Part shown: positions 13,758-61,286 of the stretch, piece by piece
Position numbering within the stretch: position 1 is the first letter of the stretch
Layout: each line of letters begins with the position of its first letter
The notes under the pieces: model-generated
What the model was told of the DNA's origin: nothing
Databases searched by the model: none
Seen by the model: the letters and a program-made list of their open reading frames with translations, nothing else
Made by a program: the position numbers and the translations under genes
Source: Botryococcus braunii
Taxonomy: Eukaryota > Chlorophyta > Trebouxiophyceae
Assembly (NCBI GenBank): GCA_002005505.1
Contig: KV908668.1
Location: 49,867-113,866, forward strand
Reading direction: 5' to 3'
DNA length: 64,000 nucleotides

Positions 13758-13762
13758 ATAAG

Positions 13763-15139
13763 TATTGTAGGTAATGACCAAGATTAGGTAATTACTTAGG
13801 GAGCATTACTGTTGGACTTATTCAGAGGTATTCTTCTGACTCATCCTTGGCAAAACAGTCGTGTATGCCAAGCTGACCTGGACGACGCGACACTGATGAG
13901 CCTTAGGTGTAAACTACTGCATATGTCTTCCAGCTAGTCCTATGAACTTGGCTGTGAAGCGACATAATACTATGACAGACTTCAGTCTCCTTCACATAAC
14001 TTCACGTAGAGGTTTGGACAACTTTGCATTGACTCACGCAGCATCGTGGCACTCAGTGGAATTTGTTTTTTGGGACCTCGAATACATATTCGAGGTCAGT
14101 CAAACTAATTCCCAGGCGGCCACATCAGTGTGTTGATTTAGGTACATGATATGGGACCTTTAAGTTGTGTTGGCTAGGACACATCATATGTATTGGAGTG
14201 CCAATTAGGGACCTTTTGTAGTGAGAGTTCTTGAGGGACTCGACTTTTATCGAGTCCCTTGGGCGCCAAACACGGTCTGGTATTTAATTGCTGGAGGCGA
14301 CAGCCTCGGAATTCTTTGGTTGGCCGAATCTCGAGCCACGGACTGGAAGTCCTGTCTGATTGATGCAAATTGGAGCTTGCTGTTGCATATTTGATTTGTG
14401 TTTGAGACAGTCGTACTTGTTTGGTTGCCGCAACGGAAGGCGCTCCTGTCGAACCTGTATCAGTCGCGCCAAAGGGTACGTTGTCATTTTGACAGAGGAT
14501 AGAATAGCCTGATGTATTTGATGTACAACGTATTTGCAATGTTGCACATTGCTCTGTCTAAATCGTAATGATTGGGGCAATAGGTGTGTCGAGGTCTGAC
14601 TTACGTATACGAAACCTCTCCACTGCATTGACGAATCCTTTGCGGACTTACAGGTATTGAATGTATTTGCGATTTAATTAGATAATTCCTATGTGGTTTG
14701 ATATTTTGTTGACTCTTGCAAAGTTGTGCTGATTGGTCGTCAAGGGAACGAGAGTGCCGGACTCAGGTCCGGCACAGAACCTATCTGAGACGATACTGTG
14801 AAACCAGCTGATGTGAGAAGCAATTCATCCGTATAAGAGATTGTGCCAGTAGGGCAAGCAGTAATGATGTTCCATGTAATTGATTCTTTGGTTGGCCGAA
14901 TCCTGAGCCACGGACTGAAAGTCCTGTCTGCTTGATGCAAATTGGAGCTTGCTGTTGCATATTGGATTTGTGTTTGAGACAGTCGTACTTGTTTGGTTGC
15001 CGCAACGGAAGGCGCTCCTGTCGAACCTGTATCAGTCGCGCCAAAGGGTGTGTCGAGGTCTGACTTACGAAACCTCTCCACTGCATTGACGAATCCTTTG
15101 TGGACTTACTGGTGTTCTCTCTGCCCATAACCTTTCACA
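13763..15139 (+). mobile_element. Solo LTR of the Copia A family (1377 bp)
   Basis: This single LTR is flanked by the perfect 5-bp target duplication ATAAG (13758-13762 and 15140-15144) inside the Gypsy I integrase gene. Its length equals the LTRs at 20532-21908 and 28222-29598, but its sense runs on the plus strand. It starts TATTGTAGG where other copies have TGTTGTAGG and ends CCTTTCACA. It is diverged from them throughout, so it is an older insertion; the internal region was probably lost by LTR-LTR recombination. It holds the 108-bp GT...AG segment at 14476-14583. Confidence 0.92.
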
Positions 15140-20531: not shown

Positions 20532-21908
20532 TGTGAAAGGTTATGGGCAGAGAGAACACCTGTAAGTCCGCAAAAGGATTTGTCAATGCACTGTAGAGGT
20601 TTCGTCAGTCAGACCTCGACACACCCTTTGGCGCGACTGATACAGGTTCGACAGGAGCGCCTTCCCTTGCGGCAACCAAAACGCAAGTGCAACTGTCTCA
20701 AAGACAAATCAAATATGCAATAGCAAGCTTCAACTTGTAGCAAACAGACAGGACTTCCATTCCGTGGCACAGGATTCGGCCAACCAACGAATCGATTACA
20801 TGGGACAATATTACTGATTGCCCTACTGGCACAATCTCATATACGCATAAATTACTTCTCACATCAGCTGGTTTCATAGCATCGTCTTCAGACATGTTCT
20901 GTGCCGGACCTGAGTCCGGCACACTCGTTCCCTTGACGACCTAACAGCACAGCTTAGCGACAGTCAACAAAATATCTAACCAAATAGGAATTATCTCATT
21001 AAATCACAACTACATCAATACCTGTAAGTCCGCAAAAGGATTTGTCAATGCACTGTAGAGGTTTCGTCAGTCAGACCTCGACACACCTATTGCCCCAAGC
21101 ATTACGATTTAGCCAGAGCAATGAGCAACATTGCAAATGCAGTGGTTATCAAATACATCATGCTATTCTATCCTCTGTCAAAGTGACAACGTACCCTTTG
21201 GCGCGACTGATACAGGTTCGACAGGAGCGCCTTCCCTTGCGGCAACCAAAACGCAAGTGCAACTGTCTCAAAGACAAATAAAATATGCAATAGCAAGCTT
21301 CAACTTGTAGCAAACAGACAGGACTTCCATTCCGTGGCACAGGATTCGGCCAACCAACGAATGACGAGTCTGTCGCCTCCAGCAGTTAAATACCTGACCG
21401 TGTTTGGCGCCCAAAGGACTCGATAAAAGTCGAGTCCCTGAAAGCTTCTCACTCCAAAAGGTCCCTAATTGGTAATCCAATACGGATGATGTGTCCTAGA
21501 CAAAATACCTAAAGGTCCCATTTTCTGTACCTAATTAAACACACTGATGTGGCCGCCTAAGAATTAGTTTGACTGACCTCGAATACGTATTCGAGGTCCC
21601 AAAAACAAGTTCCACTGAGTGCCACGATGCTGTGTGAGTCAATGCAAAGTTGTCCAAACCTCTATGTGAAGTTACGTGAGGAAGACTGAGGTCTGTCAAG
21701 GAATTATGTCGCTTCACAGCCAAGTTCCTAGGACTAGCTGGAAGAAATATGCAGTAGTTTGCACCTAAGGCCCAACAGTGTTGTGCCGTCCAGGGCAGCC
21801 TGGCATGCACGACTGTTTTGCCTAGGATGAGTCAGAAGAATACCTCTGAATAAGTCCAACAGTAATGCTCCCTAAGTAATTACCTGATCTAGGTCATTAC
21901 CTACAACA
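20532..21908 (-). repeat. Copia A 3' LTR (1377 bp)
   Basis: Left-hand LTR of a complete element. In element sense it starts TGTTGTAGG (at 21908) and ends CCTTTCACA (at 20532). It is near identical to 28222-29598 and exactly as long, implying a fairly recent insertion. The outer flank GACTG (20527-20531) is repeated at 29599-29603. It contains hairpins at 20901-20922 and 21413-21438 and a 24-bp perfect palindrome at 21575-21598, plus the duplicated leader segment (20560-20792 and 21022-21362). Confidence 0.95.
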
Positions 21909-21919
21909 CTTCCCCTTGG
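21909..21919 (-). other. Copia A polypurine tract
   Basis: Reads CCAAGGGGAAG on the minus strand directly next to the 3' LTR; it primes plus-strand DNA synthesis. The same tract borders the LTRs at 33079-33089 and 54582-54592. Confidence 0.85.
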
Positions 21920-22095
21920 ACGTTTCAGAGGTCCAGCTATTGTACTACTTCTCAGGCAACGCCCACTGTAGTACATGCTTCTGGGTCAGGCGTGCTTCGG
22001 GGGAGTTACTAGTGAAGGAGGTAGCTAATCTCCTCACCCTCCGCCTTTGCCCGTGGTCACTCGGTCGTGGTGAACACCAGCCGGAAAATAAGACG

Positions 22096-23280
22096 TCACT
22101 CGCGTGAAACGACACCAAGTGTATTGCGGTGAACCTTGAACAACACAGGGACGAGTGGTTTCGTAAAGATGTCCGCCACATTCTTCTGGGTGGGTACATA
22201 CTTCACGTCCACGTCACCCTGAATGACAGCAGCACGTGCATGGTGAAATGCCACAGCAACATGCTTGGTGTACTTGGAATTTACAAGATTCCGTAAATTC
22301 CGAACACACCCAGAGTTATCAATGAACAGAGGAGGTTTCCACACATCAACATGAATCTCCTCCAAGAAACCGCGAAGCCAGATGGCTTCTTTGACAGCAT
22401 GAGTAGCAGCTCGAAACTCTGATTCCACTGTTGATGTAGCAGTGGCACTTTGTTTCTTGCTGCCCCCAACAACTGACCCACCATAAACTTGGAACACGAA
22501 ACCTGTAGTGGATGCTCGCATATCTAGATCACCCGCATAGTCGGCATCGACATAACCCTCAAGAGGAGATGTGCCCCCACCAAGCTGGAGTGCAAGATCC
22601 CGAGTGTCCTTCAAATACCGGACCACTCGAAGACCTTCTTGCATATGTGCAGTGGTAGGTGTGCCTCTATACCGTGAAAGAACCCCTACCGCATGAGCAA
22701 TATCAGGACGTGTGGTATTAGCTAAATACAGAAGAGAGCCAATCAGCTCACAGTAACGATGCCCGGGTTCCAAAGCAACCCCAGCCCCATCAATGGGATT
22801 GGACTGAGTGGAGTGAGTGGTGTGCACAAATGATTTACTCATAGGTGTGTCATAGGCCCGTGTGTCACCACTAAGTCCAAAACTGTCCACCAATGCATCT
22901 ATCTTCAGCCCACTACTCATCCACATCAGCTTCCGCTCTCGATCTCGAACAATCTGACATCCCAGGAAATCCTTGACTTCCCCAAGATCATGAATAGAGA
23001 ACTCTTTCCCTATAGTCTCCTTAAAGGCCAATACACGTGGGAGAGCCTTTGACATGATCAGCATGTCGTCTACAAAGAGAACCAAATACACAGGATCTTC
23101 CCCTGGAACATTTGACACATAGATTCCTGCATCTGACATGCATGCAGTAAATCCATGTTTAGCCAGTGTGGCATCAAGCGTATGATACCAGGCACGTGGA
23201 GCTTGTTTGAGGCCGTACAGAGCCTTACGCAAGCGACACACTTGGGGACCACCATTGTGAAATCCTGGAGGTTGAGTAAC
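22096..23280 (-). pseudogene. Copia A pol, C-terminal part: RT palm and RNase H
   Basis: Encodes the second half of reverse transcriptase (RLRKALYGLKQAPRAWY, then the catalytic FVDDMLIMSK) and RNase H (EGYVDADYAGDLDMRASTTG, STVESEFRAATHAVKEAIWL, HVAVAFHHARAAV, KNVADIFTKPL), ending VVSRE and a stop at 22096. In RNase H the word SVVGGSKKQ replaces SVVWGSKKQ of the sister copies. It is separated from the first half of RT by the solo LTR K, which sits just after the codons for VTQPPGF. Confidence 0.93.
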
Positions 23281-23974
23281 TGTTGAGTTCTGAACATTAT
23301 TATTGAATGCCTTGTGCTTTAAGTGATCTTCATGTGTGCACTATTAGGATATGGGTCCATTGAGAACATAAGGTACCTTGAGACACGGCAGATTCTGGAC
23401 GTTTTCGAACATAAGGTACAATCCTATCTAGATCACACGTTTGTCGGATGAACTCTTAAGGCTGCCCCACCGGAGTGAATACCAACTGGTTGTGAAAGAT
23501 GCTGGGCATCACCAGATGCTAGTCTTGTCCGACAGTTGTGTGTGGCACTCAGCAGACAGTCGTACGGACTGTAGCTGGAGTAACTTCGTCTATTGACGAC
23601 CTGTCTGCTTTGTACAGGTACGGTGCGGCAGTGTGTGTTGTATCATTGTTGCTATTGTGAGAGTGAACAAGCTTAGTGTACCCTGTAGTCACTCAAACAG
23701 ATAAGGGACAGTGACTTCAGGGAGTATAGGCATGTACTTGAACGTAGCCGTCTAGAGCCTTATCTAGTGATTGCTTGATCGGTGCTTGTGTACAAGATAA
23801 TGATGTAACGGAACTGGTTGTGAAAGATGCTGGGCATCACCAGATGCTAGTCTTGTCCGACAGTTGTGTGTGGCACTCAGCAGACAGTCGTACGGACTGT
23901 AGCTGGAGTAACTTCGTCTATTGACGACCTGTCTGCTTTGTACAGGGAAAGCCGATTGCCCATAACCTTTCACA
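23281..23974 (+). mobile_element. Solo LTR K (694 bp) inside Copia A
   Basis: A TG...CA sequence starting TGTTGAGTTCTG and ending GCCCATAACCTTTCACA, flanked by the perfect 5-bp duplication GTAAC (23276-23280, 23975-23979). It interrupts the RT gene; sister copies at 34440 and 55950 are continuous here. It shares only its last about 18 bp with the Copia A LTR, so it belongs to a different but related family. It holds a direct duplication of 134 bp (23484-23617 and 23812-23945); copy 1 ends TGTACAG followed by GTACGG, copy 2 ends TGTACAG followed by GGAAAG. Confidence 0.92.
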
Positions 23975-26900
23975 GTAACGTAAACCTCTTCCTCCAGATC
24001 CCCATTCAAAAAGGCCGTTTTTTTATCGAGCTGATGAATTTCCATATCCTCAGCAGCTGCCTTACACAGAAGAACACGTCGAGCCCCAAAGCTACTGGTG
24101 GGTGCGAAGACTTCGTCCACATCAATACCCTGAATTTGACGACATCCTTGTGCAACAAGACGAGCTTTGTACCTTATAACATTACCATGGGCATCGACTT
24201 TTACAGAATAGATCCAGTGAACTGGGATGACTTTCTTTCCTCTGGGTCTTTCAGTGTACTCAAAGCACTCATGAGCATCGAGAGAGTTCTTCTCCTCGAT
24301 CATGGCTTGTTCCCAAAACACCCACTGATCAGACATTCGTGCCTCACGATAGTTACTTGGTACAGGAATCTTGCTAAATCTCACTCCTGCAGGACTAGCA
24401 AGGCAAGCACGTAGAAAAGCAATACTGGCAGGTTCACTGGCATCCCCTCCTGAATCCGCGGTACGGAACACACATGAAGGCATCTCCCCACTGGGTTCTG
24501 CCCCATCTTGCTCATGCAAAATGTCTCTAACAATCCTGGCAGATCCTGCCCATGGATTATCTGAGCTCTGCCTTGTGGCAGATGGCAGATTATCAAAGAA
24601 TGCAACCTTGCCTCTGGATCTCATCTGACCCACTACTCTCCGTGCTTCCTGACTCCCGCTCTCATCTTCTCTCACAGCAGCAGCAGTTATCATCTCTTCA
24701 TGTTCACATACCATCTCAGAATGGTCCACTGCGTCATGCACATTGCTAACTCGAAGTCGAGTTTCACGATCAGATTCACATTTTGCATTAACAAGCCTCC
24801 CTACAGCCTCATCACGTACATGCATAGCAACAGCATTGTCATCGCTACACTGATCAACAGCACTTGAATCACCCTCCACTGCAGAGTCAGTGTCAACTCC
24901 AGTACCCCTCCCAGTACATTCAGCTTCTCCTGCTTCCCCTACGTCTCCTGCTTCCCCTGGTTCCCTGGACGTTGTAATCCCCCCTTCTTCTGTACTGGTG
25001 TCATCATGTACAGTGACGGTGGTAGGAGCTTCATCAGCAGCTTCGATCCCAGCCTGCTCTGTGATGTCACCAGACTTGGGTTGCTCTTTACGAGCATTTC
25101 GTTGCTGCAGACGCTCTGCACGTGTCAAAGCTCCAGGCTGCAGCTGGAAACGTGCCGTACCACCAGGCCAGGGGAATGCGCCCGGGGTGCGTGAAGTTGG
25201 AGACTTTGCCAGTGGTACTACCATGAGTCTCAGTCGGGATATGGTGCGAATCCCTCCACTGGTGGTTGGTGCAGAGGTCCCATGCCTGGTAGCAGCATGC
25301 ATGCGCCTGGGCACCTCACTGACTCCAGGTGATTGGCTTGAGGATGCTGGACTGGGCGCAGTAGAACCAGGAGACCCCACTGGGGATGGCGCAACGGGGG
25401 CGCAGGGTGCAGTGAGGTTGGAGTGCCTAGTGCGCGCAGGGGGTGCACAAGGTGCGCGGGGTGCAGTGGGGTCTGGATGCAGTCGGGCAGTTTGAGGACG
25501 AGCTGGGGAGGGTTCATCGTCCTCGCTACTGTTGTCCTCCATGGGAATTGTTGCCTCAGTGGATGCAGGGGTCTCCAATTCCACAGGATTCAGGTCCTGG
25601 TCCAAGCTGGGTCCCGGTTGGGGTGAGGCTGGGTCCGGATCCAGGCTAGATCCAGGCTGGGTTGCAGATACAGGACCGGGCCCAGCAGCTTGCAGCCCAA
25701 TGGCAGACGCACCACTCTGGCTCTCCACAAAATGTACACTCGGAGACACCACTGTCCTACCAGGCAGTCGGACCTTGTACCCCTTGGTGTGTGGACAGTA
25801 TCCCACAAACATACCTGCCTCAGACTGTGCACCCAAAGATGACACCTGGTGTTTGGCATGTTTCACGTATGCCAAACAGCCCCACTTGCGCAAATGGGAC
25901 AGATCAGGGACAGAGCCAGTGAACATTTCAAATGGGGTTTTCTCCTGACCAGAGACTGGCATCACATTATGTAAATATGCAGCAGTAAGCATTGCATCCA
26001 CCCAAAGACTCTCATCTGCCTGAACACCCAACAGCAATGTTCTGGCCTTCTCTTTCAATGTTCGATTCATTCTCTCAGCAACTCCATTCTGCTGTGGAGT
26101 ATACGCGGCAGAGGTCTCAGTGTGAATGCCATTCTCTGTACAGAACCCATGAAACGTTTTATTCAAGAACTCTGTGCCCCTGTCAGTCCTAACCGCCTTA
26201 ACCTTGGATTCTGTCTGTCTCTCCCAGTATGTAATAGTGTCTGTCAAATGAGATGCAATGGTAGCCTTGCTAGTGACTGGTAACACTGAAACGAAATTAG
26301 ACAACTCATCCACTACTGTGACAGAAAACTTTTCCCCTTCAACGCCAGGAGTTGACATGGCACCAACCGTATCCGCATGTATTCGATGCAGTACTCGAGG
26401 CGGCTCATGTGAACTTGGCTTGAAAGATGGTTTACACTGCTTTCCCCGAACACAAGGGTCACAGTGAGTATCGCACTTTGAACAAGGAAGAAGGGACACA
26501 GGTATCCCAGTACACAACTCCTCCCTGCTAAAGCGCTCTGTGGCTGTCTTCCCAGGATGCCCTAACCTCTCATGCCAAAGTTTTCGCAACTTGCAGTTAT
26601 GTGCAGGTTTGTGCGCAGCATGATGTGCAGACATAGGGTTCACACACACTTGACAAGCCACCTGATATTTGGTGGGATAAATTCCCCTCAGAACATACAA
26701 CCCATATCTTTCTACAATGCTGCACTCCCAACCCATGGGTCCCACCAGACTGCTGTAGGTCCCATTCTCACGTGGAACAAATTGAATACCATCCCTTACC
26801 CCAGCTGATACAGACAAGAGATTTGTGCTGGCCTGTGGAACACATTGTACATTATGGAGCCACAGTAACTGCCCTTCTGCATTCACCGGACACACACTCC

Positions 26901-28070
26901 CACTAGCAATGATGGAACCATGAGACTCTGATGTAGCCAACTGCAGTTGACGTGGTTCTGTGTACACCGTGGGGTTCTGCAATACACCAAAGTCATTAAC
27001 CAGGTGGACAGTAGCCCCAGAGTCCACAAGCCATTCCTCGCACGAGTGCCCTATCCCACCACTCTGTAATACATTAAACGTCACACTGGGCAGTGAGATA
27101 GGAACGGCTTCTGCGTTTTTAGGACATGGAACATGGGTACTGTTGGATGCAGAGGGAACACTTGGCAGTGAATGCTTACTTCTGTCGCCAGCTTGCTCCT
27201 CTCCAGTACCCTTTTTCCATTTTGTGCACTCCTTGCTGATGTGTCCACGGCTCCCACACTCCCAGCACCTGACTTTTCTTGACCTCTTTCTGTCTTGCTC
27301 TGACTGGTCTGCCTCAGGGTCCTGGGACTTTGGGAGGACTGCCGCTGCCTTGGGAAGAGGTCGAGGGAGCTGGTCATTGAAGCCAGCACCATAGGCATGG
27401 CTCTGCAGGATTTTCACCACATCTTCTGAGGAGCGCCCGCAACAATGCCCATAGAGTGCTCCTTTGAACTGTGCTAGCTCAGTGGGGAGACAATCCACAA
27501 TAGCATTAGTGACATCTTCGGGGTCAATGGAGTGGGAGTTGTCCAGGAGGTTCTGGAAAAGTATGATTTTTTTCATGACAAATGTCTCGATTGTCTCCTC
27601 CCTGGTCATGTGCTCTGTTTTGAGTGTATGTGGCCACTGACGGTTAACAGACTTGTTGTGTCCTCCAGTGAACTTATTGGCTATGTATAACAGGGCATCA
27701 AAGGCAGAGGGCTTCATTGTCAACATAGGACTCCACTCCACTGGGACACTGCCAGTGATCAGCATCATGGCAGCAGCATTTGCTCTCGTGAAAGGAAGGG
27801 GTTTCTGAAAGGCCTCCGTGCACTCCTTGTGGATAGCTGCAGTGGTCAGATCAAAAGCCAGGACTTGAAATTCCACCCATCCTTTAATAAGGGATGGGCT
27901 ACCTTAACATTTGTTGTTGATGGCTTTGTTGTGTCCTCGTGCAGTAAGGCTGTCAGTATCGAAACCACTGGGAGTGCTGTCTTCTCCTGTTCTGTGGATT
28001 GACCACCCAAACTTACAGGAGGCTGTTGGTTCAGCTGGTCCATTGGAGATGATTCCGCAGACTGGGTCAT
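23975..28070 (-). pseudogene. Copia A gag-pol, N-terminal part
   Basis: Gag starts at 28070 (MTQSAESSPMD). A 1-bp deletion at about 27857, in the AGATCAAAAGCC run (sisters have AGATCATAAAGCC), shifts the frame; from there it is open to 23975. Seen in order: Gag core (AAAMMLITGSVPVEWSPML, LYIANKFTGGHN), CCHC knuckle CWECGSRGHISKEC (about 27265), protease WLVDSGATVHLVND (about 27030), pre-integrase LWHERLGHPGKT, integrase HADTVGAMS / RTDRGTEFLNKTF / YTPQQNGVAERMNRTLKEK, a long Pro/Ser/Glu-rich linker (about 25700-24700), then RT ERPRGKKVIPVHWIYSVK, VFAPTSSFGARR and TAFLNGDLEEEVYVT. Here the usual DIKTAF reads DKKTAF. Confidence 0.93.
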
Positions 28071-28206
28071 TGTGTGAAAGGTTATGGGTTTCTGCAAGTC
28101 TGGGTCACTTTGCAGATATGAATCGTTCTGGATATGACGTGCAGCAGGTATTCAAGGCGGACTCCTCGTACTCTGCAACCTTGGCTTCGGCGTAGCTCGA
28201 TGGGCA
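28071..28206 (-). other. Copia A leader between PBS and gag
   Basis: About 136 bp untranslated leader. Just before the gag ATG it repeats the LTR's terminal 16-mer CCCATAACCTTTCACA (28073-28088 on the minus strand). The same arrangement is in D at 59707-59722. Confidence 0.7.
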
Positions 28207-28221
28207 GGTGGGCCCATAACC
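28207..28221 (-). other. Copia A primer-binding site (internal tRNA-iMet type)
   Basis: On the minus strand GGTTATGGGCCCACC follows the 5' LTR end directly. It matches the site in Copia B and is complementary to the anticodon region of plant initiator tRNA-Met as I recall it. The first ten bases are also the reverse complement of the LTR's own end (GCCCATAACC), so U5 and PBS can pair as a hairpin. Confidence 0.8.
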
Positions 28222-29598
28222 TGTGAAAGGTTATGGGCAGAGAGAACACCTGTAAGTCCGCAAAAGGATTTGTCAATGCACTGTAGAGGTTTCGTCAGTC
28301 AGACCTCGACACACCCTTTGGCGCGACTGATACAGGTTCGACAGGAGCGCCTTCCTTTGCGGCAACCAAAAGGCAAGTACGACTGTCTCAAAGACAAATC
28401 AAATATGCAAGAGCAAGCTTCAATTTGCATCAAACAGACAGGACTTCCATTCCGTGGCACAGGATTCGGCCAACCAACGAATCGATTACATGGGACAATA
28501 TTACTGCTTGCCCTACTGGCACAATTTCATATTCGCATAAATTACTTCTCACATCAGCTGGTTTCATAGCATGCGTCTCAGACATGTTCTGTGCCGGACC
28601 TGAGTCCGGCACACTCGTTCCCTTGACGACCTAACAGCACAGCTTTGCGACAGTCAACAAAATATCTAACCAAATAGGAATTATCTCATTAAATCACAAC
28701 TACATCAATACCTGTAAGTCCGCAAAAGGATTTGTCAATGCACTGTAGAGGTTTCGTCAGTCAGACCTCGACACACCTATTGCCCCAAGCATTACGATTT
28801 AGCCAGAGCAATGAGCAACATTGCAAATGCAGTGGTTATCAAATACATCATGCTATTCTATCCTCTGTCAAAATGACAACGTACCCTTTGGCGCGACTGA
28901 TACAGGTTCGACAGGAGCGCCTTCCTTTGCGGCAACCAAAAGGCAAGTACGACTGTCTCAAAGACAAATCAAACATGCAAGAGCAAGCTTCAATTTGCAT
29001 CAAACAGACTGGACTTCCATTCCGTGGCACAGGATTCGGCCAACCAACGAATGACGAGTCTGTCGCCTCCAGCAGTTAAATACCTGACCGTGTTTGGCGC
29101 CCAAGGGACTCGATAAAAGTCGAGTCCCTGAAAGCTTCTCACTCCAAAAGGTCCCTAATTGGTAATCCAATACGGATGATGTGTCCTAGACAAAATACCT
29201 AAAGGTCCCATTTTCTGTACCTAATTAAACACACTGATGTGGCCGCCTAAGAATTAGTTTGACTGACCTCGAATACGTATTCGAGGTCCCAAAAACAAGT
29301 TCCACTGAGTGCCACGATGCTGTGTGAGTCAATGCAAAGTTGTCCAAACCTCTATGTGAAGTTACGTGAGGAAGACTGAGGTCTGTCAAGGAATTATGTC
29401 GCTTCACAGCCAAGTTCCTAGGACTAGCTGGAAGAAATATGCAGTAGTTTGCACCTAAGGCCCAACAGTGTTGTGCCGTCCAGGGCAGCCTGGCATGCAC
29501 GACTGTTTTGCCTAGGATGAGTCAGAAGAATACCTCTGAATAAGTCCAACAGTAATGCTCCCTAAGTAATTACCTGATCTAGGTCATTACCTACAACA
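28222..29598 (-). repeat. Copia A 5' LTR (1377 bp)
   Basis: Partner of 20532-21908. Leader duplication at 28250-28482 (second copy) and 28712-29052 (first copy); the 108-bp GT...AG segment is at 28777-28884 on the minus strand. It is followed on the right by the target duplication GACTG (29599-29603). Confidence 0.95.
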
Positions 29599-30320: not shown

Positions 30321-33078
30321 TGTGAAAGGTTATGGGCAGAGAGAACACCTGTAAGTCCGCAAAAGGATTTGTCAATGCACTGTAGAGGTTTCGTCAGTCA
30401 GACCTCGACACACCCTTTGGCGCGACTGATACAGGTTCGACAGGAGCGCCTTCCCTTGCGGCAACCAAAAAGCAAGTGCGACTGTCTCAAAGACAAATCA
30501 AATATGCAATAGCAAGCTTCAACTTGTAGCAAACAGACAGGACTTCCATTCCGTGGCACAGGATTCGGCCAACCAACGAATCGATTACATGGGACAATAT
30601 TACTGCTTGCCCTACTGGCACAATCTGTGAAAGGTTATGGGCAGAGAGAACACCTGTAAGTCCGCAAAAGGATTTGTCAATGCACTGTAGAGGTTTCGTC
30701 AGTCAGACCTCGACACACCCTTTGGCGCGACTGATACAGGTTCGACAGGAGCGCCTTCCTTTGCGGCAACCAAAAGGCAAGTACGACTGTCTCAAAGACA
30801 AATCAAATATGCAAGAGCAAGCTTCAATTTGCATCAAACAGACAGGACTTCCATTCCGTGGCACAGGATTCGGCCAACCAACGAATCGATTACATGGGAC
30901 AATATTACTGCTTGCCCTACTGGCACAATTTCATATTCGCATAAATTACTTCTCACATCAGCTGGTTTCATAGCATCGTCTCAGACATGTTCTGTGCCGG
31001 ACCTGAGTCCGGCACACTCGTTCCCTTGACGACCTAACAGCACAGCTTTGCGACAGTCAACAAAATATCTAACCAAATAGGAATTATCTCATTAAATCAC
31101 AACTACATCAATACCTGTAAGTCCGCAAAAGGATTTGTCAATGCACTGTAGAGGTTTCGTCAGTCAGACCTCGACACACCTATTGCCCCAAGCATTACGA
31201 TTTAGCCAGAGCAATGAGCAACATTGCAAATGCAGTGGTTATCAAATACATCATGCTATTCTATCCTCTGTCAAAATGACAACGTACCCTTTGGCGCGAC
31301 TGATACAGGTTCGACAGGAGCGCCTTCCTTTGCGGCAACCAAAAGGCAAGTACGACTGTCTCAAAAACAAATCAAATATGCAAGAGCAAGCTTCAATTTG
31401 CATCAAACAGACAGGACTTCCATTCCGTGGCACAGGATTCGGCCAACCAACGAATGACGAGTCTGTCGCCTCCAGCAGTTAAATACCTGACCGTGTTTGG
31501 CGCCCAAGGGACTCGATAAAAGTCGAGTCCCTGAAAGCTTCTCACTCCAAAAGGTCCCTAATTGGTAATCCAATACGGATGATGTGTCCTAGACAAAATA
31601 CCTAAAGGTCCCATTTTCTGTACCTAATTAAACACACTGATGTGGCCGCCTAAGAATTAGTTTGACTGACCTCGAATACGTATTCGAGGTCCCAAAAACA
31701 AATTCCACTGAGTGCCACGATGCTGTGTGAGTCAATGCAAAGTTGTCCTAACCTCTTCGTGAAGTTACGTGAGGAAGACTGAAGTCTGTCAAGGAATTAT
31801 GTCGCTTCACAGCCAAGTTCCTAGGACTAGCTGAGAGACATATGCAGTAGTTTACACCTAAGGCACAACAGTGTCGTGCCGTCCAGGGCAGCCTGGCATG
31901 CACGACTGTTTTGCCTAGGATGAGTCAGAAGAATACCTCTGAATAAGTCCAACAGTAATGCTCCCTAAGTAATTACCTGATCTAGGTCATTACCTACAAC
32001 ACAATCTCATATACGCATAAATTACTTCTCACATCAGCTGGTTTCATAGCATCGTCTCAGACATGTTCTGTGCCGGACCTGAGTCCGGCACACTCGTTCC
32101 CTTGACGACCTAACAGCACAGCTTAGCGACAGTCAACAAAATATCTAACCAAATAGGAATTATCTCATTAAATCACAACTACATCAATACCTGTAAGTCC
32201 GCAAAAGGATTTGTCAATGCACTGTAGAGGTTTCGTCAGTCAGACCTCGACACACCTATTGCCCCAAGCATTACGATTTAGCCAGAGCAATGAGCAACAT
32301 TGCAAATGCAGTGGTTATCAAATACATCATGCTATTCTATCCTCTGTCAAAGTGACAACGTACCCTTTGGCGCGACTGATACAGGTTCGACAGGAGCGCC
32401 TTCCCTTGCGGCAACCAAAAAGCAAGTGCGACTGTCTCAAAGACAAATCAAATATGCAATAGCAAGCTTCAACTTGTAGCAAACAGACAGGACTTCCATT
32501 CCGTGGCACATGATTCGGCCAACCAACGAATGACGAGTCTGTCGCCTCCAGCAGTTAAATACCTGACCGTGTTTGGCGCCCAAGGGACTCGATAAAAGTC
32601 GAGTCCCTGAAAGCTTCTCACTCCAAAAGGTCCCTAATTGGTAATCCAATACGGATGATGTGTCCTAGACAAAATACCTAAAGGTCCCATTTTCTGTACC
32701 TAATTAAACACACTGATGTGGCCGCCTAAGAATTAGTTTGACTGACCCTCGAATACGTATTCGAGGTCCCAAAAACAAGTTCCACTGAGTGCCACGATGC
32801 TGTGTGAGTCAATGCAAAGTTGTCCAAACCTCTATGTGAAGTTACGTGAGGAAGACTGAGGTCTGTCAAGGAATTATGTCGCTTCACAGCCAAGTTCCTA
32901 GGACTAGCTGGAAGAACTATGCAGTAGTTTGCACCTAAGGCCCAACAGTGTTGTGCCGTCCAGGGCAGCCTGGCATGCACGACTTTTTTGCCTAGGATGA
33001 GTCAGAAGAATACCTCTGAATAAGTCCAACAGTAATGCTCCCTAAGTAATTACCTGATCTAGGTCATTACCTACAACA
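30321..33078 (-). repeat. Copia G 3' LTR, split by solo LTR J
   Basis: The LTR runs 30321-30625 and 32007-33078; the two parts sum to 1377 bp, the full length of the A-family LTR. The interruption is solo LTR J with its CAATC duplication. Downstream are the polypurine tract (33079-33089) and the G pol gene on the minus strand. Confidence 0.93.
30626..32001 (-). mobile_element. Solo LTR J inside the Copia G LTR
   Basis: A 1376-bp A-family LTR in the same orientation as its host LTR, flanked by CAATC (30621-30625 and 32002-32006). It is an LTR inserted into an LTR of its own family. The 108-bp GT...AG segment is retained in the first leader copy (about 31180-31287). Confidence 0.92.
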
Positions 33079-33265
33079 CTTCCCCTTGGACGTTTCAGAG
33101 GTCCAGCTATTGTACTACTTCTCAGGCAACGCCCACTGTAGTACATGCTTCTGGGTCAGGCGTGCTTCGGGGGAGTTACTAGTGAAGGAGGTAGCTAATC
33201 TCCTCACCCTCCGCCTTTGCCCGTGGTCACTCGGTCGTGGTGAACACCAGCCGGAAAACAAGACG

Positions 33266-42859: not shown

Positions 42860-44421
42860 ATGTCACAGACAGAATTACAAGATGAAGGATTCAATGTCAG
42901 TATTGAGATAGAACCTGCCAGCCCAATGGGCAGGAATGTCTTTAGGAATCCTACCCATGATGCAGAAGCAGTCACTGATGATTCTGTGTCACATGTTACA
43001 GGGGTCCTCAATGGAATGCAGCAGCAAACTGATGAGGGTCTACAAAGACCACAGGGAGACTCAGAATGGGAAGCATGGGGATATGATCCACAGACTCAAA
43101 ACATACCTCTAAACCCTGCTTTCTCAAGACGAGACAACCTTGGGACCTTTGTACCTGCTCAGCAAGCTGCTGCATCTCCTGCCCCTATGTCTTCTAGAGT
43201 GCTAGGCTTTCAAACAAACCTGCCTGCCTCTAGACCTGTCTTAAGCCCTTTGTTTGGGATACCTAGGACTGCAGTCAGGATGCCAGTGAGGCATACACAC
43301 CTACCTGTACCTAGTGCACCACTGGCAGGTGCACCAGTCAATGTTTCCTCATTCATGACAAGTGTACCACACACAGGTATTATGCTCCTTTCAGGAAACA
43401 TAAATCAGGCAAGTACAGCATCAGGTACTACAGTAGTGCATGTTCCCTTGGCAACTGGTGGCACAATGCCAATCAGTTTGCCAATATCTACAATTTGAAA
43501 CTCTATTGCACCAACTGTTCAAAGTGTGAGTGCTACACAGGGAACTGCTGCACAGTCAACGGCACAAGTGTCTGCCCCACCTCCTCCACCTCCACCAGGT
43601 GGTGGGCCTCCTTATAGTGGTCCACCAGGAGGTGGTGGCTGGCCTCCAAATCCACCAGGGGGTTCTTCCTCAGGCCCTCCCTGGTTTAGTGGTGTACCTG
43701 GCAGTTGGGGTATGGTGAATTCCAACCCCTATGGTTGCAGTGGGTATCCCTTCATGAAGTTCAATTCTCCTTCTCAAAGGCTTACTCCAAAGTTAGAGCC
43801 CCTGAAACTAAATGATGATAACTGGGTCATATGGTCTAGATATGTTCATGCAATGCTTATAGAGATGGGGGTAGAATACTGTATTCTTCATGACATGAGA
43901 GGCTATTTAGATGATTATAAGGCCCAGAGCATTATAACACAGTCATGTTCAGAGGAGTATCAAATACAAATCTCTGATCATTTGTCTGCCTACTCTATGT
44001 GGGACTACTTAATGGCCCTATTTGTTACAAAAGCAAATGGCAAAATCATATCTCTCCAGGAAGAGTCCCGCACCTTCAAGATGCATACAAATGAGAAACC
44101 TTCCTCATATGTGTTAAGGGGTAGAAAAATAGCCAACACAATTAAAAGCTTAGGACATGAGTTCAGTGACCTCTCACTCTGCACTATGCTTTTAAATGGA
44201 CTCCCTGAGGAGTATAATATACATAAGCAGGTTCAACAATCTATTATAGTGTCCAATCCTGATGTGAATCTGCTACAACACTCTTTAGAGCTGGCACATA
44301 TGCAGATAGTGAATAAGAAACTCCAAACCCCACCACCTAAAAACAACACCTTTAACCAGAAGTCCTCTCCTGGTCAAGGGTACAACCCTAAGTATAAGGC
44401 ACCAAATTCTCCTACTTCAAA
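42860..44421 (+). pseudogene. Copia F gag, broken
   Basis: Starts MSQTELQDEGFNVSIEIEPA. A point change makes TGA at 43496-43498, where E reads TTA (Leu). It continues in frame 43526-44421 with a Pro/Gly-rich region and the UBN2-type Gag core (NWVIWSRYVHAMLIEMG, YSMWDYLMALFVTKANGK, FKMHTNEKPSSYVLRGRK, LNGLPEEYNIHKQVQ). At 44421 it is interrupted by Copia E after codons for SPTSN. Confidence 0.9.
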
Positions 44422-45049
44422 TATTCGATTATTTGATGTCAATTTGATCAAAAACAGTTTCAGGATTCCTGCATAGCAAGCGACAGCTGAGTTAATGCAG
44501 GCAAAGGACGGTGCCAAACGGAAATACAGAGGTCCGACTTGAGGCACCGGAGACAGCAATCGAATGTCTGAGGATACGACTCTGTCTCTACCCCTTTATC
44601 CACCTAGAATCGTTGTTCCGTGCAAAACAGATTCCTATTGACAGAATACTACTTGCCAGAATGCTATATGCCGCGTCGATCGGCCCAGTCGATCAGCTCC
44701 GTCGACACTTATGGACAGAAATACTTCTACGCCTTGTCGATCGGCCTCGTCGACTCATTCCTGAAATAACCGTTCGTACTTTAAAACAAGTACACTTTGC
44801 AGCCAATTGTTTATTGTACGTGTCCGATCGACTCGTACTTCGAAATCGACCGAATCAACAAGAGTCCGAAACATCCGTTGTCGTCCTAAAATATCCGTAT
44901 CTCTAAGAACCTCCGGATTTTACGGAAAGACCCAATTTTTGCAAAGTAAGATAACTGTTCATTATTGTAGGGCCATAAACTAAGGTTCATACGAACATGC
45001 AACTTATGCTAAGACATTATACGTCCAATAAAAGATGTCTTTGCCAACA
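44422..45049 (-). repeat. Copia E 3' LTR, short form (628 bp)
   Basis: Element sense TGTTGGCAAAG...AATCGAATA, i.e. TG...TA ends. It contains a single copy of the segment that is duplicated in F, directly joined CAG to GAATCC. Confidence 0.95.
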
Positions 45050-45358
45050 CCTCCCCTCATGTGAAGTATGAAACTTTAATGCAGTTCATTAACTGGTAAC
45101 ATTTTAAGGCTAATGAGCATCAAGAAAATCATCAGATGTTGCAATGGCTCGGTGCTCCAAACCGTGTCAGCCACAAACCCCTTGACATCCAGCCACCAAA
45201 TGACCCCCCCTCTTTTTTATTGGGTGCGGTGTCACCTCCCCCTTCTTCAAGGTGGGTTTATGGTGGGGAGTATCTGTTGATGCGCAGGGTGTCTGATTTA
45301 TCTTGATAGTCAAAAGCACAATAAAAAAAATCATTTCATTCCTGCCATCTCCCTGAAC
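45050..45358 (-). other. Copia E polypurine tract and 3' noncoding
   Basis: GAGGGGAGG on the minus strand borders the LTR (45050-45058). The remainder up to the RNase H stop is A/C-rich and noncoding. Confidence 0.8.
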
Positions 45359-46150
45359 TTAACAAATGAGGCTTTGTAGAATTTTGGTGAACATATCAGC
45401 AACATTTTCTGATGTGTGGATGTATTGAGGATTAATGTTCCCCTTGACCACTTCACCCCTGACTCTGTGATAGCGGACTCCAATGTGCTTCGTCCTGGGT
45501 GAAATGGGTATGCCTCTAATGTTGGCCAGGGCTCCAGTATTATCTGAGAGTATGACTGCAGCTCCCAGATCCTCTCCAACATCCTGCACCAACTTGGACA
45601 GCCAAAGTGCCTCCTGGACACCAGTGCTCATTGCTATGAATTCAGCCTCAACTGTTGACAGGGCAGCCAGCTTTTGGAGTTTGCTACCCCAAGAGATAGC
45701 CGTGCCATCAGACAGGAAGATAAAACCAGAGGTGGATCTGTACCCATCCAGATCCCCTGCAAAGTCTGAATCAACATATCCTATGATCCCTCCCTTGCTC
45801 CTTTCCCATTTGAGACCTAACTCCTTGGTCCCTGACAGATACTGGAGCAGATGAATCCCAGCCCCCCAGTGAATAGAAGTCGGGGAGTTTGAGAATCTTG
45901 CTAGGAGAGAAGCAGAGTAGGAAATGTCTGGTCTGGTAGTGTTTGACAAGTAAAGAACGCCCCCAACCAGTTCCCTATATCTGTTGTTTTGGGGAAGTGG
46001 TTTGCCTTCTCCCTTTTTGAGTTTCATTGATCTATCGAGGGGAGTAGATTTGGGCTTGTCTCCTTTTAAATCGAAACTCTCAAGCATGTCACTGATCAAT
46101 TTCTCATTTGAGAGTGTAATTGACAACAAAGCACCATTTGCATCTCTCTC
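45359..46150 (-). pseudogene. Copia E pol C-terminus: end of RT and RNase H
   Basis: Continues the polyprotein after the GA-run frameshift near 46148 (ITRER to ANGALLSITL). It contains YRELVGGVLYLSNTTRPDIS, IGYVDSDFAGDLDGYRSTSG, WGSKLQKLAALSTVEAEFIA, LSDNTGALANIRG and RTKHIGVRYHRVR, the RNase H domain with its conserved acidic residues, ending with a stop at 45359. Confidence 0.93.
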
Positions 46151-49100
46151 TTGTTATTTGCATGCCTAGAAAGTGTTTTGCCTCCCCTAAGTCCTTTATG
46201 CTGAAATGACTGGACAAAAGTGATTTGACTTCTGTTATGACAGACATGCTCTGTGATAGTAATAGTATGTCATCAACATACAGCAGAAGATAGACTACAG
46301 ACCCCTCTGACTTGTTCAGGATGAATAGGGATGGATCAGCATCTGAGATAGTAAAACCTGAACTCACAAGGACATGACTGATAGTGTCATACCAAGCCTT
46401 GGGCGCCTGCTTGAGCCCATAGAGGGCCTTGTGCAGCTTGCAAACAGTATTGGGTCCACCTACATGAAAACCCTCTGGTTGCTGCACATAAATTTCCTCT
46501 GCTAATTTCCCATGTAGGAAGGCTGTGCTGACATCCATCTGATGCACATGCATGTCCCTGTTCACAGCCTTCGCCAACAGGTACCTTAGTGTGGTATGTT
46601 TAGACACAGGGGCATAGACTTCAGTGTAATCTATGCCATATATCTGTTTGAAACCCTTTGCTACCAGTCTTGCTTTAAATCTATCCACCTCCCCTGTTTC
46701 AGTGAGCTTTATTTTGTAGACCCATTTGACAGGGAGGGCCTTTTTGCGTTGTGCATCTGAAACTTCCACATATGTCCAGGTGCCAAGAGCAGAGAGAGAC
46801 TGCATTTCATCTTTCATGGCATCCAACCATTTTTCAGCTTCAGGAGAGTTGATAGCTTGAAAGTAAGTGACAGGTTCAACATATATTGTGTCTTTTTGGA
46901 CTTGAACATATCCAAGGAAAGAGGTTTGGGTTTCTGTAGTGTGTGCACCAGACCACCAGGGATGTGTTTCTGTATTTTTCCTGTTCCTAACTGGATACTT
47001 ACTGCTGAAACCACCTGCTGGAGGCTTAGGGACCACATCCTGGTCTACTCCAGGTTCTAATTGGGGGTCTGGGACACTCCCCCCACTCATTCCATGGATA
47101 GTCGCTTGTGGAACACCCTTAAGTGGGCGCGGACTTGCAGCACTTGTGTAACAGGGTTCTGGATCTAAAGCGTCCGTACTTCCCGCGGCTGCACTTTTAC
47201 CATGCTTAGTCCCACTAGGATCAAGACCAAAGTGGTCCTGATCCTTTCCCGTTTGCTCTCCAGCACTAACTAGTGTAGTACCCTGATCTAGCTCTAAGCT
47301 AATTTCTGGGATATCTAATGCAGAAGAGACATCAGGCATTTGCTCAGTGTTATCACCATCATCAGAATGTCCATCTTCTGAGTCAGAATCAGAGACACTC
47401 ACTAGTGATGGGCAAGTGTCATCCTCATCGTCTTCAGCCAATGCTTCAGGCAGATCATGAACAGCATGTTCAGAGAATTTGACATATTCTCTGCAGTAAA
47501 CATCAATCTTTCCATCAACAAGAACTTTGTAGTTCTTGCTAAGGCCATCATAACCTACAAAGATACCCTCAGCACTGACAGGCTCAAATTTCCCTCCCCT
47601 CTTTGACTTAGGAAGAAGGAGAAAACATTTGGAGCCAAAGATTCTGAGATGTGAAACATTGGGAGTCTTTCCATGCATCATTTCAAATGGGGTTTTGCTC
47701 AAATGCTTAACAGGAGACATATTTCTAACATAATTTGAAGTAAGAAGAGCTTCACCCCAGTTTTCAGATGATAAACCTGAGGCAGCTAGCAAACACCTTG
47801 CTTTCTCCTGTAGCGTACGGTTGAGCCTCTCTATTTTCCCATTCTGCTGATGTGCATATGGGGCAGTCTTCTGGTGAACTGCCCCATGCTCCCTACAGAA
47901 TTTGAACAACCCATTGAACTCAGTACCATTATCTGTTCTGATAAATTGTACTTTACAGTCTTGCTGGTTTTGCAAAGCTGTGAGAATGTATGTAGCTTCT
48001 TTTGCTGCATCACTCTTAGATTTAATCAGAACAACAAATGAGTACTCTGTGAACTCATCCAAAATGACAAGGGCATACTTGTATCCTTCAGGAGTTTCAG
48101 GATCTATGGGGCCCATAAGGTCCATGTGAATGACTTCAAGAGGTTTTGAACAAGTATTTTGGGTTGATTTAAATGGTGAGGCTGTCTGCCTCCCATGCAT
48201 ACAGGCATCGCAAGTACCTTGATGACCAATGCACTTGGATAGGTCACCTGATGGGAGTTTTAAGCCTTCTACCATTTTCTCCCTGCTCAACCTTTGCAAG
48301 TTTTGAGCAGAGAGATGACCAAAACGCTGATGCCATATGTTTACCAGATCTACATCCACCTTTGTATGGTTGCACTGTGTCTTTTCATTTGACACTGGTA
48401 GGGGAACACTGTTTTGTATAGAAAGGTCTGTGAGCCACTGATAAGGGTATACATGTTCAGCAATGCCCACAAGATCACCATTTGAATCTGTAAGGTGACA
48501 GTGAATGCCATTTATATGAACATCTAACCCATCATGATAGGCCTTCCCTACAGACAATAAACGCTTTTTAGCTGAGGGTACATGTTTAACATTGTACAGG
48601 TAAAGAGAGTTTCCTGTTTCCAGGAAGACCTGCACAGTACCCTCACCAATGATTTCCTCCCTACCACCATTTGCTACTATCAGGATATCTGGTTTATCAT
48701 ACTTGACATAATTCATCATATTCTCACAGTCAGGGGAAATATGATCTGTTGAACCAGAATCTATCAGCCAACCAGAAATAGAGGGTTCAGAGCAAACTGT
48801 ATATAGCTGTGTGCAGTGGCTCTGCTTTGGTGGAGAAGCAAAGCTAACTCTCTTCCCCTCCAACTTTGGGCAGGTCTCTATGCTGTGTCCATCCTGCTTG
48901 CAGTACCTGCAAAATGGTAAAGGCCTCCCTATCTGTTGGAAGGCTGTTTTACCACTCTGCCCACCACCACCTTGATTAGCACCTTTCTCTACAGCATTTG
49001 AAGTAGGAGAATTTGGTGCCTTATACTTAAGGTTGTAACCTTGACCAGGAGAGGACTTCTGGTTAAAGGTGTTGTTTTTAGGTGGTGGGGTTTGGAGTTT

Positions 49101-50558: not shown

Positions 50559-50910
50559 TATTCCAGAAGCCTTGACGGGCAACTGGCAAAGAAAGATTAT
50601 AAGGAAAACAAACTTGCTTGCACTTTAAACAGATATTCCACAACCACCAGATCCCAACAGCCAATACATCCAATTGTCTCTCACTACTGGATCAACACAA
50701 GTGCCTTTCCAGCGAGACAATCCAGCAACCCGAAGTTCCACCCGATCGGTTTAACCCAAGACACTACAAACAACTTCGTTGAAAGCAGAGAAATGGGCGT
50801 GAATTTCTGGAGACTTGCTGAAGCTTGCAAATAGTTGTATGCGTATTATTCTCCTCGCTGCTGGCGGGAGCAGTGACCAGTATCGACACCAAACGGTGTC
50901 GCCGATACCA

Positions 50911-53150: not shown

Positions 53151-54581
53151 TGTGAAAGGTTATGGGCAGAGAGAACACCTGTAAGTCCGCAAAAGGATTT
53201 GTCAATGCACTTGTAGAGGTTTCGTCAGTCAGACCTCGACACACCCTTTGCGCGCGACTGATACAGGTTCGACAGGAGCGCCTTCCCTTGCGGCAACCAA
53301 AAAGCAAGTGCGACTGTCTCAAACACAAATCAAATATGCAATAGCAAGCTTCAACTTGTAGCAAACAGACAGGACTTCCATTCCGTGGCACAGGATTCGG
53401 CCAACCAACGAATCGATTACATGGGACAATATTACTGCTTGCCCTACTGGCACAATCTCATATACGCATAAATTACTTCTCACATCAGCTGCTTTTATAG
53501 CATCGTCTCAAACATGTTCTGTGCCGGACCTGAGTCCGGCACACTCGTTCCCTTGACGACCTAATAGCACAGCTTTGCGACAGTCAACGAAATATCTAAC
53601 CAAATAGGAATTATATCATTAAATCACAACTACATCAATACCTGTAAGTCCGCAAAAGGATTTGTCAATGCACTTGTAGAGGTTTCGTCAGTCAGACCTC
53701 GACACACCTATTGCCCCGAGCATTACAATTTAGCCAGAGCAATGAGCAACATTGCAAATGCAGTGGTTATCAAATACATCATGCTATTCTATCATCTGTC
53801 AAAGTGCCAACGTACCCTTTGCGCGCGACTGATACAGGTTCGACAGGAGCGCCTTCCCTTGCGGCAACCAAAAAGCAAGTGCGACTGTCTCAAACACAAA
53901 TCAAATATGCAATAGCAAGCTTCAACTTGTAGCAAACAAACAGGACTTCCATTCTGTGGCACAGGATTCGGCCAACCAACGAATGACGAGTCTGTTGCCT
54001 CCAGCAGTTAAATACCTGACCGTGTTTGGCGCCCAAGGGACTCGATAAAAGTCGAGTCCCTGAAAGCTTCTTATTCCAAAAGGTCCCTAATTGGTAATCC
54101 AATACGGATGATGTGTCCTAGACAAAATACCTAAAGGTCCCATTTTCTGTACCTAATTAAACACACTGATGTGGCCGCCTAAGAATTAGTTTGACTGACC
54201 TCGAAGACGTATTCGAGGTCCCAAAAACAAGTTCCACTGAGTGCCACGATGCTGTGTGAGTCAATGCAAAGTTGTCCAAACCTCTATGTGAAGTTACGTG
54301 AGGAAGACTGAGGTCTGTCAAGGAATTATGTCGCTTCACAGCCAAGTTCCTAGGACTAGCTGGAAGAAGTATGCAGTAGTTTGCACCTAAGGCCCAACAG
54401 TGTTGTGCCGTCCAGGGCAGCCTGGCATGCACGACTGTTTTGCCTAGGATGAGTCAGAAGAATACCTCTGAATAAGTCCAACAGTAATGCTCCCTGAGTA
54501 ATTACCTGATCTAGGTCATTACTTACAATAAACAGTAATGCTCCCTAAGTAATTACCTGATCTAGGTCATTACCTACAACA
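53151..54581 (-). repeat. Copia D 3' LTR (1431 bp)
   Basis: A-family LTR, 54 bp longer than the 1377-bp form because its U3 start is tandemly duplicated (about 54480-54581). The 108-bp GT...AG segment is at 53708-53815 on the minus strand. The 24-bp palindrome of other copies carries a change here (GAAGAC for GAATAC). Confidence 0.93.
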
Positions 54582-59855: not shown

Positions 59856-61286
59856 TGTGAAAGGTTATGGGCAGAGAGAACACCTGTAAGTCCGCAAAAG
59901 GATTTGTCAATGCACTTGTAGAGGTTTCGTCAGTCAGACCTCGACACACCCTTTGCGCGCGACTGATACAGGTTCGACAGGAGCGCCTTCCCTTGCGGCA
60001 ACCAAAAAGCAAGTGCGACTGTCTCAAACACAAATCAAATATGCAATAGCAAGCTTCAACTTGTAGCAAACAGACAGGACTTCCATTCCGTGGCACAGGA
60101 TTCGGCCAACCAACGAATCGATTACATGGGACAATATTACTGCTTGCCCTACTGGCACAATCTCATATACGCATAAATTACTTCTCACATCAGCTAGTTT
60201 TATAGCATCGTCTCAAACATGTTCTGTGCCGGACCTGAGTCCGGCACACTCGTTCCCTTGACGACCTAATAGCACAGCTTTGCGACAGTCAACGAAATAT
60301 CTAACCAAATAGGAATTATATCATTAAATAACAACTACATCAATACCTGTAAGTCCGCAAAAGGATTTGTCAATGCACTTGTAGAGGTTTCGTCAGTCAG
60401 ACCTCGACACACCTATTGCCCCGAGCATTACGATTTAGCCAGAGCAATGAGCAACATTGCAAATGCAGTGGTTATCAAATACATCATGCTATTCTATCAT
60501 CTGTCAAAGTGCCAACGTACCCTTTGCGCGCGACTGATACAGGTTCGACAGGAGCGCCTTCCCTTGCGGCAACCAAAAAGCAAGTGCGACTGTCTCAAAC
60601 ACAAATCAAATATGCAATAGCAAGCTTCAACTTGTAGCAAACAGACAGGACTTCCATTCCGTGGCACAGGATTCGGCCAACCAACGAATGACGAGTCTGT
60701 CGCCTCCAGCAGTTAAATACCTGACCGTGTTTGGCGCCCAAGGGACTCGATAAAAGTCGAGTCCCTGAAAGCTTCTCATTCCAAAAGGTCCCTAATTGGT
60801 AATCCAATACGGATGATGTGTCCTAGACAAAATACCTAAAGGTCCCATTTTCTGTACCTAATTAAACACACTGATGTGGCCGCCTAAGAATTAGTTTGAC
60901 TGACCTCGAAGACGTATTCGAGGTCCCAAAAACAAGTTCCACTGAGTGCCACGATGCTGTGTGAGTCAATGCAAAGTTGTCCAAACCTCTATGTGAAGTT
61001 ACGTGAGGAAGACTGAGGTCTGTCAAGGAATTATGTCGCTTCACAGCCAAGTTCCTAGGACTAGCTGGAAGAAGTATGCAGTAGTTTGCACCTAAGGCCC
61101 AACAGTGTTGTGCCGTCCAGGGCAGCCTGGCATGCACGACTGTTTTGCCTAGGATGAGTCAGAAGAATACCTCTGAATAAGTCCAACAGTAATGCTCCCT
61201 GAGTAATTACCTGATCTAGGTCATTACTTACAATAATCAGTAATGCTCCCTAAGTAATTACCTGATCTAGGTCATTACCTACAACA
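59856..61286 (-). repeat. Copia D 5' LTR (1431 bp)
   Basis: Same length as 53151-54581, including the 54-bp terminal duplication, with scattered differences (e.g. TAATCAG for TAAACAG between the duplicated ends). It is followed directly by GAATC and Copia G sequence. Confidence 0.93.

Follow-up and report, generated by a model that had tools for sequence, protein, structure and literature searches.

Layout of the element and its LTRs

The window, that is, the whole stretch of DNA analysed here, is 64,000 nucleotides long. A Ty1/copia element occupies positions 20532..29598 on the minus strand, as judged from self-BLAST, the Pfam matches gag_pre-integrs, rve, SH3 and RVT_2, and a target-site duplication, CAGTC, at both flanks. 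Within the ORF at 27903-23764, Pfam placed rve at 503-603 and RVT_2 at 1213-1310, with RVT_2 running on into the next ORF; integrase is located upstream of reverse transcriptase in the polyprotein, which is the arrangement that defines Ty1/copia elements. The LTR pair, delimited by self-BLAST, is of the TG...CA type (TGTTG...CACA, 1377 bp, with a short target duplication). The 5' LTR lies at 29598-28222 and the 3' LTR at 21908-20532, the element sense being the minus strand. A purine tract, AAGGGGAAG, precedes the 3' LTR, and the primer-binding site GGTTATGGGCCCACC (28207..28221, minus strand) adjoins the 5' LTR; we take its complement to fit the anticodon arm of initiator tRNA-Met. The 16-nt sequence CCCATAACCTTTCACA, which closes the LTR (28222-28237), recurs in the leader at 28073-28088, directly ahead of an ATG at approximately 28070. 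Moreover, CCCATAACC is also complementary to the primer site adjoining the LTR end, so that the two form an inverted repeat.

In element sense, the LTR reads U3 - E1 (168 bp) - INT (108 bp) - E2 (65 bp) - Y (229 bp) - E1 - E2 - Z (28 bp). A leader segment is therefore present twice, as X1 (E1-INT-E2) and as X2 (E1-E2). The following coordinates refer to the minus strand of the 3' LTR. U3 (21363..21908) ends TATTTAA (first base at -30) ... CTCGTC. The exon-like E1 of X1 (21195..21362) begins with an A that is the predicted cap site, in the Inr-like context TCATTC. The intron-like segment INT (21087..21194; GTACGT...CAATAG) occurs in X1 only. The exon-like E2 of X1 (21022..21086) ends with TTACAG followed by GTATTG, a possible donor of a second intron. 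The spacer Y (20793..21021) ends with CCCATGTAATCG and holds the sole TGTAA of this LTR copy. X2 (20560..20792, composed of 20792-20625 and 20624-20560) ends with TTACAG followed by GTGTTC, a possible acceptor of that second intron, and Z (20532..20559) closes the LTR. In the 5' LTR of the same element, X1 is at 28712..29052 and X2 at 28250..28482, both on the minus strand. A second copia element in the window (44421-51538) has LTRs of 629 bp, in which a self-comparison (matches of at least 250 bp) found no repeat.

X1 and X2 differ by an intron-like segment

The original prediction stated that X1 contains 108 bp that X2 lacks, and this was borne out by the alignment. X1 (21362-21022, 341 bp) and X2 (20792-20560, 233 bp) differ by a single mismatch and one 108-bp gap (21194-21087), and the join in X2 reads AAAGG followed by GTGTGTCG. 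The claim of an exact GT-AG join was sustained in part: a GT...AG placement of the gap exists, but GGT stands at both gap borders and four placements fit, so the gap ends are not unique. In the 64-kb window, 32% of GGTs have an A in front. With GGT fixed, an A before its second copy is enough to produce an AG end, which is therefore expected in about one third of cases. The GT-AG dinucleotides alone thus carry little weight, and the argument that a deletion has no reason to respect both of them is weak. A chance deletion respecting GT/AG is allowed by the dinucleotides alone but disfavoured by the other evidence.

The same GGT repeat speaks for an explanation without splicing, namely a tandem duplication of the leader followed by a 108-bp microhomology deletion between the GGTs in X2, with slippage of reverse transcriptase homogenising the copies. 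The microhomology permits it and the AG end costs little, although we consider it quite unlikely in view of the concerted E2 and the starting point of X2 described below. The GGT on both sides of the 108 bp could also be a 3-bp target duplication, as if X2 were original and X1 had gained an intron by insertion. The best 40 of 197 candidate genome matches each align with 107-108 of the segment's bases at an identity of at least 98%, and no dispersed family of the 108 bp was seen among them. The donor-side pattern matches examined all lay behind an E1. Intron gain would also leave the concerted evolution of X1 and X2 unexplained, and we regard it as highly improbable.

Within INT, the GT...AG ends are kept in all lineages compared (84 copies). 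Its first 8 columns are variable in at most 1 of 84 copies and the last six in 1-3. In CTAAATCGTAATG, which stops 13 nt short of the end of INT, no column is variable in more than 2 of the 84. The presumed spliced form is visible as DNA in X2 and in the short LTRs described below. We infer that INT is spliced. One host intron also starts with GTACGT, the donor hexamer of INT; this is a single example and not a survey. It lies in a gene of the host stretch L121, whose protein match is Bobra.0157s0028, from the JGI set for Botryococcus braunii, a trebouxiophyte green alga. Runs of 77 and 74 consecutive residues in two exons match this protein without a difference, and beyond these runs the alignments enter intron. 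We take Bobra.0157s0028 for VPS54, from two Pfam domains; a Pfam search of 5 host ORFs of L120/L121 gave no match.

LTR copies in the window and in the genome

All seven X1 copies in the window have the 108 bp and all seven X2 copies lack it. This agrees with the prediction that the segment accompanies X1 in other window copies (14476, 28777, 53708 and a copy labelled J), to which 31180-31287, 32256-32363 and 60413-60520 can be added; the identity of the 108 bp among window copies is 89.8-100%. An older solo LTR (13762-15139, flanks ATAAG/ATAAG) carries X1-Y-X2 at 14311..15109 on the plus strand, with the architecture of the 3' LTR and approximately 89% identity. Another LTR, with a purine tract in front, has X1-Y-X2 at 53179..53984 (minus strand), and in its lineage E2 is one base longer in X1 and X2 alike. 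The X1-Y-X2 at 59884..60689 (minus strand) belongs to the same lineage and to another 5' LTR; the leader follows it. The window copies do not all represent separate elements: at 30321-33079, a complete LTR has inserted into Y of a second LTR from this family. Tandem X copies at 30321-32002 and at C44:650635 were considered as structural variants and are read as such LTR-in-LTR insertions.

LTRs for the wider census were chosen among the matches listed genome-wide and are a non-random sample. Among the sampled long LTRs, INT was present in 94 X1 copies and missing from none. X2 lacked it in 99 copies and contained it in one, which belongs to the single triple LTR of the sample, U3-[E1-INT-E2-Y]x2-E1-E2-Z. 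The comparison of indel ends called for by the original prediction accordingly revealed no varied gap ends (0/94 X1 without INT and 1/100 X2 with INT in the sample).

The sample also included 16 short LTRs of the form U3-E1-E2-Z, and two LTRs of the form U3-E1-INT-E2-Z were found genome-wide. None of the 16 short LTRs in the sample had INT (P = 0.005 as a test of splicing). Adding the two INT-bearing short LTRs gives 2 of 18 (P = 0.09 for this number or fewer), the two sets having been drawn differently, and the ratio of short LTRs without and with INT is not decisive as a test. None of the three unusual forms (short, triple, and short with INT) requires splicing, and the slippage postulated under duplication and deletion can make them all. 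Short LTRs as ancestors of the long form were rejected: they would require 8 tree changes, 6 of them forced by well-supported branches. Since these changes are needed and the short LTRs lie beside long relatives, the short LTRs are more likely derived.

Two unusual copies were observed. At C14:165274-166729 (L013, L014), a short-LTR element reads U3-E1-E2-Z-leader. Approximately 87 bp further on comes another E1-E2-Z-leader, which likewise starts at the predicted cap site, with GTC before both; the double leader is apparently another template switch at the RNA 5' end. At C30:38014-39007 (L017), an X copy behind Y contains, in this order, approximately the first 16 bp of INT, a gag-like stretch, GCGCCAAAGG and E2; it is a scrambled product, probably of reverse transcription.

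Concerted evolution of X1 and X2

X1 and X2 were compared in the 84 LTRs with a near-complete X1 and X2; the others were dropped. Within one LTR, X1 and X2 differed by 1.07% on average (median 0.43%), compared with 3.3% (median 2.1%) for X1 versus X1 between LTRs. When X1 and X2 were paired at random in 2000 permutations, the smallest mean difference was 2.8%. The two copies carried the same letter at 19 lineage-marking columns in 78-84 of 84 LTRs. Of these columns, three belong to E2, beyond INT, and showed agreement in 84, 82 and 84 of 84. For E1, the same minor letter occurred in both copies in 323 cells, with 79 X1-only and 77 X2-only cells, the latter two being as expected of private mutations after insertion. 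For E2, a minor letter was found in both copies of at least one LTR in eight columns (49 cells), and the single-copy maximum per column was 4 X1-only, in a column with 2 X2-only. A FastTree tree of 184 rows gave no X1 and X2 clades (37 changes); the group X1 needed 39 changes against a shuffled mean of 33.7. Some variants of a single LTR are present in both X1 and X2, such as E1 column 85 at C44:649343. The variant at column 102 of the window LTR is in its X1 and X2, plus one other X1. X2 seems to have been re-copied from X1 minus the 108 bp.

The pattern bears on how the copies are kept alike. Flow through RNA lacking INT is favoured because both flanks of INT move while INT stays in X1. Gene conversion or slippage that copied E1 and E2 together would carry INT along or delete it. 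Under duplication and deletion, slippage homogenises E1 but not E2 without INT, yet E2 evolves in concert, with 49 cells shared by both copies.

We also weighed a single old event, in which a spliced-leader cDNA joined behind Y once and the LTR has since been inherited whole from unspliced RNA, and we judge it unlikely. DNA gene conversion as the process that has since kept X1 and X2 alike is likewise doubtful. Such an event accounts for the cap-site start and the missing intron. In addition, the block-wise differences between the two LTRs of this insertion (E1 copies 11/168 and 8/168, Y 6/230, U3 1/546, INT 1/108) suggest that gene conversion between LTRs does occur, and are likely due to conversion of one LTR by another copy. 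The spliced-leader model does not explain why these differences are concentrated in E1 and Y. Between some copies, E1 is more divergent than INT, E2 or U3, in blocks common to otherwise near-identical LTRs. Conversion across E1 and E2 should, however, often change INT, and the sample contained no X1 copy without it (0/94) and one X2 copy with it (1/100). The same X1/X2 difference was found in at most three LTRs, or in two independent ones if the C62 pair counts as one. Among 179 distinct X1/X2 differences, 28 are common to two or three LTRs, and not every difference is therefore private, which counts against the spliced-leader model; 6 of the 28 belong to two C62 copies with identical flanks.

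An artefact of assembly or polishing could in principle make X1 and X2 alike. The genome analysed here appears to derive from the race B data of PMC5399265. That publication describes a final error correction of the assembly with Illumina reads, through which such an effect might enter, and also an assembly that rests on 200x PacBio long reads. Mis-mapping would be expected to draw all copies to one sequence and not to keep lineage variants paired within LTRs, and we hold this explanation to be very improbable.

X2 starts at a predicted cap site behind a putative poly(A) signal

In the window copy, X starts at CA+1, and TATTTAA begins at -30, i.e. 30 nt upstream. Such a TATA-Inr spacing is textbook, and X can thus be said to begin at the predicted cap site, where the homology of X1 and X2 also starts. 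The first base of E1 is A in 95 of 95 X1 copies matched from base 1, preceded by C in 94 and by A in one; in close copies, the base before E1 of X1 is C in 77 of 77. The start of X2 at this site fits a flow from X1 to X2 through spliced RNA. Under duplication followed by deletion, neither this starting point of X2 nor its position directly after TGTAA has an explanation.

The base before X2 is more variable. In close copies (Y at 95% or more), it is G in 75, A in 11, T in 1 and C in 1 (n=88). The junction variants before X2 are TCG (74), TCA (11), TG (10), TC (3) and GC (2), with TTG, TCT, TT and TCC once each and 3 unclassified. In Ty1, extra letters are found at the point of strand transfer. 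A variable base before X2 and a constant one before X1 would be expected if strand transfer occurs at X2; since most of the variation consists of G-to-A changes at a CpG, this is only suggestive.

The window LTR contains TGTAA once, and no AATAAA, ATTAAA or AATATA. TGTAA stands 8 nt before X2 in 89 copies and 7 nt before it in 14, and the other 2 of 105 lack it; in the 30 nt leading up to X1, or to the E1 of short LTRs, it was found in 0 of 115. TGTAA is the poly(A) signal of late-branching green algae, and UGUAA peaks approximately 17 nt before the cleavage site, mostly at 10-30 nt, in chlorophytes except Pyramimonas (PMC1868727). By this analogy, whose spacing comes from other chlorophytes and not from Botryococcus, the RNA would end near X2 +9, at about X2 +2 to +22. 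Within the LTR, the motif order of cap-like site, GTACGT and TGTAA holds, the cap and poly(A) sites being predicted.

A spliced leader may be copied into X2 during replication

The starting point of X2, the intron-like difference and the concerted evolution of E1 and E2 together support the proposal that a spliced RNA was reverse-transcribed and became part of the LTR. Going beyond the original prediction, the transfer from X1 to X2 looks recurrent rather than a single past event. Judging from sequence, we give a probability of roughly 0.66 to the following reading: the genomic RNA starts at X1 and undergoes splicing, and at first-strand transfer the copy of this leader forms X2.

The genomic RNA would begin at the X1 cap site, and INT would have to be spliced out of the 5' leader yet retained in the 3' LTR of one and the same RNA, a demand that counts against the model. 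Splicing of INT only at the 5' end could follow from cap-dependent first-exon definition. A second splice, from the GT after X1 to the X2 end (TTACAG followed by GT), would remove a proposed intron of 462 nt and join E2 directly to Z. First-strand transfer at X2 would then turn the spliced leader copy into X2 and give a long LTR. Transfer of spliced RNA at X1 would yield the short LTR U3-E1-E2-Z, and unspliced RNA transferred at X2 the triple LTR. Standard replication of unspliced RNA would also produce a long LTR, but without any transfer of sequence from X1 into X2. On balance, it is probable that splicing is a normal step of replication, that the ends of the RNA do not match until it has been spliced, and that each LTR stores both leaders. 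Some features count against the model. INT has no polypyrimidine tract that is clear by eye, and the proposed second intron has a donor, GTATTG, with a weak +5 position. The U3-E1-INT-E2-Z pair needs retention of INT together with loss of Y, or ordinary recombination within E2.

Comparison with known systems

A search of titles and abstract openings, with subscription journals thinly covered, did not find an LTR storing a spliced copy of its own leader, and an exact scan for a piece of E2 found none in viral contigs. The element shares with Ty1/copia elements (Pseudoviridae; Drosophila copia, BARE) the position of integrase before reverse transcriptase, TG...CA LTRs and a 5-bp target duplication. 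In Ty1/copia elements the primer site fits half of initiator tRNA-Met, as the site here is predicted to do, and Drosophila copia also splices its RNA. Splicing is likewise described for BARE, where spliced RNA serves for Gag production and a different RNA is replicated; the authors state that spliced RNA must stay out of reverse transcription (PMC3735527). In contrast to BARE, the spliced leader is apparently part of replication here.

In foamy viruses, the LTR contains the major splice donor, which lies upstream of the poly(A) signal, and one set of signals is used differently by the 5' and the 3' LTR (PMC3694450). In the present LTR, the putative donor would likewise lie between the predicted cap and poly(A) sites. 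To our knowledge, foamy viruses have no intron-less second leader in the LTR, and their genomic RNA is not spliced at that donor. Tandem duplication of segments with an AG/GT border is described as a source of introns in host genes. The likeness lies in a repeated segment ending in AG/GT, which would provide X1 with a donor and X2 with an acceptor; the difference is that here reverse transcription would be the source of the duplication.

Introns disappear from any stretch that a reverse-transcribing element copies from spliced RNA, and the genomic RNA is thus expected to stay unspliced; replication via spliced RNA is a step such elements are thought to avoid. If the model is true, the element keeps its intron and yet replicates from spliced RNA: the RNA 3' end preserves the intron and the 5' end supplies the spliced copy. 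The concerted evolution of X1 and X2 would then be a record of spliced-RNA transfer across many insertions. The LTR architecture is real and unusual, and is best explained by splicing built into replication. The retroviral R region offers the closing comparison. At first-strand transfer, this terminal repeat of the RNA is re-made from its 5' copy in every cycle. Here, spliced X1 would act as the 5' repeat and the beginning of X2 as the 3' repeat, with the leader present twice per LTR, and splicing would belong to the way in which an LTR element builds its terminal repeats.
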